A stretch of 64,000 nucleotides of DNA from Blastocatellia bacterium (lineage in GTDB: Bacteria > Acidobacteriota > Blastocatellia > Pyrinomonadales > Pyrinomonadaceae): positions 124,001 through 188,000 of the forward strand of contig PMSM01000006.1 of the NCBI GenBank assembly GCA_003168335.1. Direction: 5' to 3'. The notes under the pieces were generated by a model. The model searched no databases. It was not told where the DNA came from and worked only from the letters and a program-made list of their open reading frames with translations. A program made the translations under genes and the position numbers. Position 1 is the first letter of the stretch. Each line of letters opens with the position of its first letter. Of the stretch, positions 28,848 to 33,203 are shown one piece after another.

Positions 28848-28940
28848 TCTCCCTCTCCCTTTGGGAGAGGGTTGGGGAGAGGGTTTGATGCTGAGCCTTC
28901 TTACTCCCTCTCCCCGGCCCTCTCCCAAAGGGAGAGGGAG
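28848..28940. repeat. GGGAGAGG-type palindromic repeat doublet (inverted pair)
   Basis: tctccctctccctttgggagagggttggggagaggg (28848-28883) and ccctctccccggccctctcccaaagggagagggag (28906-28940). Confidence 0.88.
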
Positions 28941-30853: not shown

Positions 30854-31185
30854 CAATCAAGACACCGACCGCGCGAATGGGCGACCTTCTCACTATTAGG
30901 GCAATTAAGAAGATCGTCGCACTGTGGGAGGTCGTCGATCATTGAGCCATGCGGCTTGCCGAAGCGAGCGACTCAATCTACCATCGCGCCTGGCCAGGAG
31001 CTTCTGGAAACGACGATGCAACCCCGTTGGGGTTGGGTCCGTCTTTAAATCAATCCGAGGGTAGCGGCGCGGCAACCCTGGGCTGTTTGCCGTGACCGCT
31101 CTGCGGTCAAGGCGTTGGAAGCTCCGAACTTGATCTAGGCTTTCTTAATTGAGTTACTCAGGTTTAAGTTGGTAAGACCGACGCT

Positions 31186-32781
31186 ATGCCATCTAACAAA
31201 ACCACCGATTCTCTGATCGCCTGGCTGCCGGATCTAATCTTCACCGGCGAGCGATTCGAAAGCGGGCTGGCTCTGGTCTGCAATCCATCCGGCCGGATTG
31301 AGCGGCTGGCGCGCATCGATGAACTGAAGGATGAGAAAAGAATTAGCCTGCCGAAACGGGCGTTGCTGCCGGGGATGGTCAATGCGCACTCGCATGCTTT
31401 CCAACGCGTGTTGAGAGGCAGAACGGAATACCAATCTCGCCGCGTACCGTTTAGCGGCGGGCTACTGCCCGCCGAGTCGGGCGGTAGCCCGACTCTAAAC
31501 GCGGAGGTGAGCAGAGACAGTTTTTGGACCTGGCGCGAGGTGATGTACTCGGCGGCGACGCGTCTCACGCCGGAAGATATTTACGACGCTTCCCGCATGG
31601 CGTTTCTCGAGATGGCCCTCGGCGGCATCACCGCTGTCGGTGAGTTTCACTATCTTCACCACGCGCCCGACGGCACGCCTTACGACGATCCGAACCTGCT
31701 GGCGAAAGAAGTTGTGCGCGCGGCGGGCGATGTCGGCTTGCGGATCGCGTTGTTGAGAGTCGCTTACGCCCGATCGGGTTTTCAGACTGGGGCGAACCCG
31801 AAGCAAGCACGTTTCATTGAAAGCGATCCGGAAACTTATCTGGGCAATCTAGAGAAATTGATTGCCGACCTTGCTCGTGTCAGAAGCCCGACCGTCAGGG
31901 AGGGCTCTCCGCATCACGAGGCCCTCCCTGACGGTCGGGCTTCTGACACCGCATGGGTTGGGGTGGCGCCCCACAGCGTACGGGCCGTGCCGCTCGACTA
32001 TCTGCGCACAGTCGTCGCCTACGCAAATCAAACCGATCTGAAAGTTCACATGCACGTCGCCGAACAACCGGCGGAAGTCTCAGCCTGCGTCGAAGAATAT
32101 GGCCGCACGCCGATCGCCTTGCTGCAATCCGAAGGGCTCTTGAGCAAACGCTTCACAGCGGTGCACGCGATCCACGTGACGCCCAAGGCCATTCCTGCTT
32201 TTGCGCGCACCGGCGCAATGGTTTGCGCCTGTCCCACTACCGAGCGAAACCTGGGCGACGGCGTGGTACCCGCCGACGAATATTTCAAACACGACGTGCC
32301 GATCTGTCTCGGCACCGACAGCCATGCCCAGATCGATTTGCTGGAAGATGCACGTGAACTTGAGTACCACTTGCGTCTGCAGAAACTCGAGCGGGCCGTG
32401 CTCAGTATCAGAAGCCCGACCGCTAGAGAGGACCGGTCGCCCGAGGAAACTGATGATGCCCTCCCTCACGGTCGGGCTTCTGACACTGCTGCCTTGTTAT
32501 TCGCTTGCGCCACCGCTAACGGCGCGCGCAGCATTGGTTCGCCAAATGGCTCGCTTGAATCCGGAAAGGCCGCGGATTTTTTCACGGTCGCTCTCGATGA
32601 TCCTTCAATCACCGGATCGTCAGACGAGGACTTACTTTCGGGTATCGTGTTTTCTTTGTCGCGCGCGGCCGTGCGCGAGGTCGTGGTTTCAGGCAAGCCG
32701 ATCGTCTCAGAAGGTCAACACCTGGTCCAGGAAGAGGTGGTAGAAAGATTCAAGGACTTGCAGCGGCGACTGTGGAATTGA
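31186..32781 (+). CDS. hutF: Formimidoylglutamate deiminase-like amidohydrolase, carrying three in-frame palindromic insertions
   Basis: LLPGMVNAHSHAFQRVLRGRTE, DSFWTWREVMYSAA, GITAVGEFHYLHH, GVAPHSVRAV, HMHVAEQPAEV, CPTTERNLGDG, LGTDSHAQIDLLEDARELEY. Confidence 0.85.
   Translation: MPSNKTTDSLIAWLPDLIFTGERFESGLALVCNPSGRIERLARIDELKDEKRISLPKRALLPGMVNAHSHAFQRVLRGRTEYQSRRVPFSGGLLPAESGGSPTLNAEVSRDSFWTWREVMYSAATRLTPEDIYDASRMAFLEMALGGITAVGEFHYLHHAPDGTPYDDPNLLAKEVVRAAGDVGLRIALLRVAYARSGFQTGANPKQARFIESDPETYLGNLEKLIADLARVRSPTVREGSPHHEALPDGRASDTAWVGVAPHSVRAVPLDYLRTVVAYANQTDLKVHMHVAEQPAEVSACVEEYGRTPIALLQSEGLLSKRFTAVHAIHVTPKAIPAFARTGAMVCACPTTERNLGDGVVPADEYFKHDVPICLGTDSHAQIDLLEDARELEYHLRLQKLERAVLSIRSPTAREDRSPEETDDALPHGRASDTAALLFACATANGARSIGSPNGSLESGKAADFFTVALDDPSITGSSDEDLLSGIVFSLSRAAVREVVVSGKPIVSEGQHLVQEEVVERFKDLQRRLWN
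31449..31500. repeat. Palindromic element (GTTTAGCGGCGGGCTA... family) inside the hutF-like ORF
   Basis: gtttagcggcgggctactgcccgccgagtcgggcggtagcccgactctaaac, read in frame. Confidence 0.88.
31877..31949. repeat. Palindromic element with perfect 29-bp arms inside the hutF-like ORF
   Basis: gtgtcagaagcccgaccgtcagggagggc (31877-31905) / 15-nt loop / gccctccctgacggtcgggcttctgacac (31921-31949). Confidence 0.95.
32406..32487. repeat. Second, diverged copy of the same palindrome inside the hutF-like ORF
   Basis: tatcagaagcccgaccgctagagagg ... gccctccctcacggtcgggcttctgaca. Confidence 0.9.
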
Positions 32782-32880
32782 ATAAGCTATGGAGTGCGCC
32801 GGCAGAGAAAAGCGGCGACGGCGCTTTATGTCCGACAAACTTCAGTTTGTCGCTTTAACTTGAGTAGAAGTCAGGGCAAC

Positions 32881-33132
32881 GACAAACTGAAGGAAACTCT
32901 GATCAAGTACTTTCGACGCGCAGCGTCGGTATGAATTTAGCCCGGCCTTTCAAGGCCGGGAAGCGGCAACGAGGTGTTCTCGTCGCGTAGCGACGCCTGA
33001 AACCAAGGGATTCAATCGTCGCTACGCGACGAGAACAGAGACTAACCTGATCCCGGCGTTGAAACGCCGGGCTAAGTTCATGCGGACGCTACGCGTCCAA
33101 GACACTTGGTCAGAGGTTCCTGAAGTTTGTCG
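32881..33132. repeat. Long foldback element (~80-bp arms) with an inner palindrome
   Basis: Arm gacaaactgaaggaaactctgatcaagtactttcgacgcgcagcgtcggtatgaatttagcccggcc... pairs with the complement of 33053-33132; inner gttctcgtcgcgtagcgacg/cgtcgctacgcgacgagaac. Confidence 0.85.
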
Positions 33133-33203
33133 GACCACAATACCCAAAGCGGCGTCTCCCGATGAATCGGGATTGCCGCCGCACTCCAAATTTGGTCGAG
33201 ATC

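Follow-up and report, generated by a model that had tools for sequence, protein, structure and literature searches.

In-frame palindromic repeats of the REP type in hutF and other conserved genes of an acidobacterial lineage

Background

Tagged REPs have been described in many phyla, as have head-to-head dimers of such units (Di Nocera et al. 2013, PMC3733652). The same paper reports degenerate terminal tags (GYAG, GYRG, GTRG, and GTMG) besides GTAG, REPs that lie wholly inside ORFs and add 20-30 residues (with two dimers in one uvrA gene of Opitutus terrae), and intragenic repeats of Rickettsia conorii that are equated with RPE-4 and RPE-6; its main text mentions Acidobacteria solely in connection with transposases whose terminal inverted repeats are long. 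In Rickettsia japonica, Rickettsia palindromic elements (RPEs) of the same or of other groups occupy the same sites in orthologues, a pattern for which the choice between an insertion hotspot and common descent was left open (PMC3767692). Within the open literature that treats Acidobacteria together with REPs, we found no description of the repeat family reported here (family A).

The stretch of DNA analyzed here (the window; 64,000 nucleotides of contig PMSM01000006.1, from a soil Blastocatellia bacterium) contains a histidine-breakdown gene, hutF, with three palindromic inserts. These resemble the intragenic GTAG REP dimers as presented in PMC3733652 (tagged stem-loops of 20-40 nt that form head-to-head dimers and are mostly intergenic) and, like the two uvrA genes of O. 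terrae treated in the same source, the hutF gene carries several inserts predicted to be translated. Intragenic translated REPs have been known since 2013, and what we add is a series of orthologues and the number of host genes. Unlike the REPs set out in that paper, family A has different units and belongs to a different phylum, and the orthologue series is genus-wide, covering decay, empty sites, and the re-use of loops by several families. The inserts are also like RPE-4, RPE-6, and RPE-7 of Rickettsia (PMC3767692), which are in-frame palindromes in ORFs, solvent-exposed, and inserted at the same sites in orthologues; RPEs are stated to measure 100-150 bp, however, whereas family-A units are about 29 nt long, mostly intergenic, and found in an unrelated lineage, and we do not claim RPE membership for them.

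Results

The hutF gene and its three inserts

The features of the locus are as follows (positions are those of the window).

31186..32781, + strand: hutF, formimidoylglutamate deiminase, 531 aa, host of three palindromic inserts
31449..31500, no strand assigned: insert S1, in-frame head-to-head dimer of REP family B (GTTTAGMGKCGGGCTACTGCCCG), spanning approximately residues 88-105
31877..31905, + strand: insert S2, first family-A REP unit, tail GTGTCAGAA plus hairpin GCCCGACCGTCAGGGAGGGC
31906..31920, + strand: S2 spacer, 15 nt, unlike between species
31921..31949, - strand: insert S2, second family-A REP unit, inverted
32405..32433, + strand: insert S3, first family-A REP unit, diverged (40.5 bits)
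32458..32486, - strand: insert S3, second family-A REP unit, inverted (50.9 bits), preceded by a 24-nt spacer

A first-pass annotation, made from the sequence alone, had described a perfect palindrome with 29-nt arms and a 15-nt loop at 31877-31949, read through in frame by a hutF-like gene, and both statements hold. The S2 arms are complementary at 29/29 nt (100%) with 15 nt between them; the predicted RNA fold of S2 has an energy of -70.7 kcal/mol, compared with an average of -26.2 for shuffled sequences (z -14); and S2 adds 25 residues, R231-T255 (RVRSPTVREGSPHHEALPDGRASDT), to an ORF that is open for all 531 residues and whose product scores above cut-off against both NCBIfam NF006681 (492.7 bits; cut-off 362) and TIGR02022 hutF (463.8 bits; cut-off 413). 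The peptide that had been pointed out on the opposite strand is indeed encoded, as a trivial outcome of palindrome symmetry. Besides S2, the ORF holds a second family-A dimer (S3, a less perfect palindrome) and the family-B dimer S1, both in frame. The 16-nt core TCAGAAGCCCGACCGT has 73 matches in the genome at one mismatch or fewer as against a single match for the reversed control, which excludes a chance origin of the S2 palindrome. An Rfam search of 31000-33200 matched no family to the hutF inserts.

Palindromes are known to break assemblies, and two other genomes of the genus (G001 and G004) do have N gaps at all three inserts (G001; contig 30, L318) and a contig break inside S3 (G004; L319 and L320), so that an assembly artefact or a pseudogene has to be weighed. 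We regard this as extremely improbable, given that the ORF is full length, the family score exceeds the cut-off, the catalytic residues are invariant (H68, H70, H288, H290, E293, H327, and D378 are among the invariant alignment columns), and independent genomes carry inserts at the same sites. The ends are duplicated at the assembly gaps of L318, L319, and L320.

Further inverted repeats lie in the window. Directly downstream of hutF is a nested palindrome of about 400 bp (32790-33188) consisting of outer arms TGGAGTGCGCCGGCA, then GTCCGACAAACTTCAG, 82-nt arms at 83%, and 30-nt arms. The 82-nt arms match the Acido-Lenti-1 RNA (RF01687) in opposite orientations, just below the gathering cut-off, and for this reason the Acido-Lenti-1 sRNA of Rfam may itself be a palindromic repeat. 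Another strong inverted repeat, with 35-nt arms CTCCCTCTCCCTTTGGGAGAGGG, is intergenic at 28849-28940.

Anatomy and copy number of family A

A family-A unit of about 29 nt consists of a conserved 5' tail (GTGTCAGAA) and an imperfect hairpin, GCCC..CC-GTNA-GG..GGGC, whose stem is interrupted by a 2x2 internal loop. A covariance model (calibrated short, with E-values that are rough) finds at least 150 units in the genome, grouped into 106 clusters. Across the 161 units contained in the stretches fetched around all family-A clusters, 119 have CC/GG as the inner stem pair and 30 have GC/GC, so that the two sides of the stem have changed in a compensatory way. Two main tail forms occur, GTGTCAGAAG and GGGGCAGTAG; the latter defines a subfamily, A2, with a GTAG tag (56 of the 161), the tag of family A, including hutF S2, being GAAG and not GTAG. 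Units occur singly and as head-to-head dimers (46 head-to-head pairs and 6 tail-to-tail pairs), with head-to-head spacers that peak at 14-15 nt and are unrelated in sequence. Family A thus shows the hallmarks of REPs and BIMEs: a stem-loop unit of 20-40 nt in many copies, inverted dimers with short spacers, and a mainly extragenic location. Judged by its sequence, each S2 arm is a REP-like unit and the S2 palindrome is a head-to-head REP dimer.

All seven genomes of the genus contain family A; in other families of the class it occurs patchily, and the genomes G022 and G045 are rich in it. Sequence logos of family-A flanks revealed no clear target motif. We found no support for spacers being captured target DNA, since the S3 spacers of G001 and G002 appear to share a common ancestor. 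Four long dimers (L197, L231, L249, and L258) have spacers of 68-80 nt with common stretches such as GCTCGCGGGTC, and are perhaps a parental form.

Placement relative to genes

Most family-A copies are intergenic. We called a cluster in-gene when its two flanks were both coding and shared one open frame, using a frame-aware hexamer score; at least 18 of the 106 clusters lie in frame inside genes on this measure, two of them in hutF, compared with 55% of random window positions scored by the same detector (P about 1e-15; the hexamer coding model is small and home-made, and may miss in-gene copies), indicating that genes are strongly avoided by family A. No disrupted gene was found among the family-A clusters: three apparent frameshifts are junctions between genes, and in the single stop-containing case the repeat sits just ahead of the ORF. 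For family B, one of 30 sampled clusters was called in-gene, namely the one in hutF.

A genome search for the palindrome within other ORFs places family-A repeats in frame inside other conserved genes as well. Hosts that match curated family models are MetG (methionyl-tRNA synthetase), MutM, PFOR (pyruvate:ferredoxin oxidoreductase), ThiL (thiamine-phosphate kinase), Mfd, PBP1A, BshC, RlmD, 2-oxoglutarate dehydrogenase E1, an A2M protein, and a SpoIID/transpeptidase protein; an aconitase-family protein is a further host. The metG gene is single-copy (the sole gene in the genome above the metG cut-off). As with RPEs, the insertions are in frame and leave the ORF unbroken. These gene contexts support the reading that palindromic repeats are translated in frame inside conserved genes and, because the same repeats occur in other housekeeping genes, that the lineage recurrently adds short protein loops, much as Rickettsia does.

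The first-pass annotation had gone further, suggesting an element selected or shaped to be translatable, and a specialization for protein-coding genes of this kind is what was first proposed for RPEs. It could account for the in-frame copies in many housekeeping genes and for the two hutF arm frames (VRSPTVREG and ALPDGRASD), which are open in 98-100% of units, but it is at odds with the strong depletion from genes, with the use of five of the six arm frames among in-gene copies, and with the six-frame mean openness of the arms (about 0.71, not above the 0.81 of shuffled arms). We therefore judge it very unlikely. The in-frame state is most readily attributed to selection acting on the host gene once a repeat has inserted, and translatability seems to filter the surviving copies rather than being a property shaped into the element. 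The resemblance to RPEs that had been noted stands with respect to behavior (in frame, in an unrelated phylum); the closer relatives are intragenic REP dimers and not RPEs as such.

Orthologues across the genus

Comparison with HutF orthologues of six further genomes in the genus (giving the set G000 to G006) showed that the same loops carry inserts, decayed to differing degrees. S1 and S3 are present in G000, G001, G002, and G004, and S1 is absent from the orthologues of G003, G005, and G006; S2 is present in G000-G004, and G006 retains a relic of one arm. At the S3 position of G003 and G006 (L286 and L289), TCTCAAG heptamers in a run (SQVSSLKSQ) take the place of REPs. HutF proteins from genera outside have no such repeats, yet their S2 and S3 loops differ in length. 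This variation, seen at both loops in all HutF orthologues, could be taken to mean that the insert is an ancestral protein segment, palindromic by accident, but that reading is refuted by the recurrence of the same sequence at about 100 unrelated places and by the HutF family members outside the genus that do not have it, and its probability is virtually nil.

The HutF tree groups G001 with G002 (88% support; several other within-genus nodes are weak), and the repeat subtypes at the inserts disagree with it: S2 of G001 has a GGGGCACTA-type tail and perfect cores, and S2 of G002 has a decayed first arm of the GTGTCAGAA type. Where synonymous sites have reached saturation, the arms still retain the sequence of the family, with third-position identity between species of 16/19 compared with 45-49% for the gene (P 0.0006-0.002); the S2 spacers, in contrast, are unalike between species. 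Subtypes that depart from the tree, together with near-consensus arms, suggest that one loop has been inserted into repeatedly or its resident copy overwritten, and the sequence comparison points to recurrent insertion or conversion at permissive HutF loops. Near-consensus arms might also be expected if the hairpin were kept in the mRNA by selection (as a translational pause, for mRNA stability, or for gyrase binding), an explanation with which conserved third positions and a non-conserved spacer agree. Orthologues in G004, G005, and G006 have, however, lost one arm or the whole insert, and the same loop is occupied by different families and orientations, so that no particular hairpin is required; we consider selection for the hairpin quite unlikely.

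A comparable pattern is seen in other genes. In mutM, the palindrome at the loop differs among G000, G001, G003, and G006. In the radical-SAM gene, G000, G002, and G003 carry dimers at a site that is empty in G004. Other GC-rich palindromes (GCGGGCATCCTGCCCGC, GCGGACGTCCCGTCCGC, and GGCGGGACGCCCGC) are in frame in mutM of G003 and G001 (L331 and L332) and in metG of G004 (L324); they occupy the same protein loops as inserts elsewhere, and are apparently further REP families.

Position of the inserts in the protein

Aligned with a solved HutF that lacks them (3mdu), all three inserts fall at or beside gaps. In a structure model of HutF built from 51 sequences (pLDDT 80, pTM 0.83), the inserts coincide with low-confidence segments (78-115, 234-253, 410-414, and 421-428) between well-folded parts, which fits disordered surface loops, although low model confidence alone is no proof of disorder. 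An earlier model from nine sequences (pLDDT 50) was too poor to use.

Candidate mobilizer

The genome has 14 Y1_Tnp matches. One of these Y1 transposase genes (L040) lies between inverted family-B units, as in RAYT/REPtron systems, and L040:1423-2077 (G000:C8 about 359897-360551) is a complete REPtron candidate; from this arrangement, L040 is a candidate autonomous unit for family B, the family of S1. For family A, no RAYT flanked by its units was found among the 14 Y1_Tnp matches in this genome.

Discussion

The repeat family, its dimer organization, its occurrence in frame within hutF and further conserved genes, and the insertion sites that genomes of the genus have in common are direct observations. 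On these grounds S2 is, with high probability, a head-to-head dimer of REP units of about 29 nt that inserted at a length-variable surface loop, the surviving copies having been filtered. From the anatomy of the units and the REP literature, a RAYT/Y1 transposase would move family-A units as single-stranded hairpins, directed neither to frame nor to genes; gene-breaking copies would be purged, and in-frame copies in disordered loops would persist. The same loops would then be re-used, or a resident copy overwritten from the genomic pool, which would hold the arms close to consensus and leave the spacer free to drift. More tentatively, permissive loops of housekeeping proteins might be standing landing sites into which several REP families are inserted, overwritten, and lost, with in-gene copies homogenized with the pool; we consider this possible, but would not yet favor it.

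The findings extend translated intragenic palindromes, as predicted from these genes, to essential genes and to a lineage of Acidobacteria in which several REP families occur. For annotation and modelling of genes from this group, REP inserts explain contig breaks and odd insertions. Seven genomes with common sites form a series (empty, fresh, decayed, and replaced) for testing neutral debris, homogenization, and loop seeding against one another and, if permissive loops are indeed standing landing sites, REP turnover would be a continuing source of protein loop evolution.
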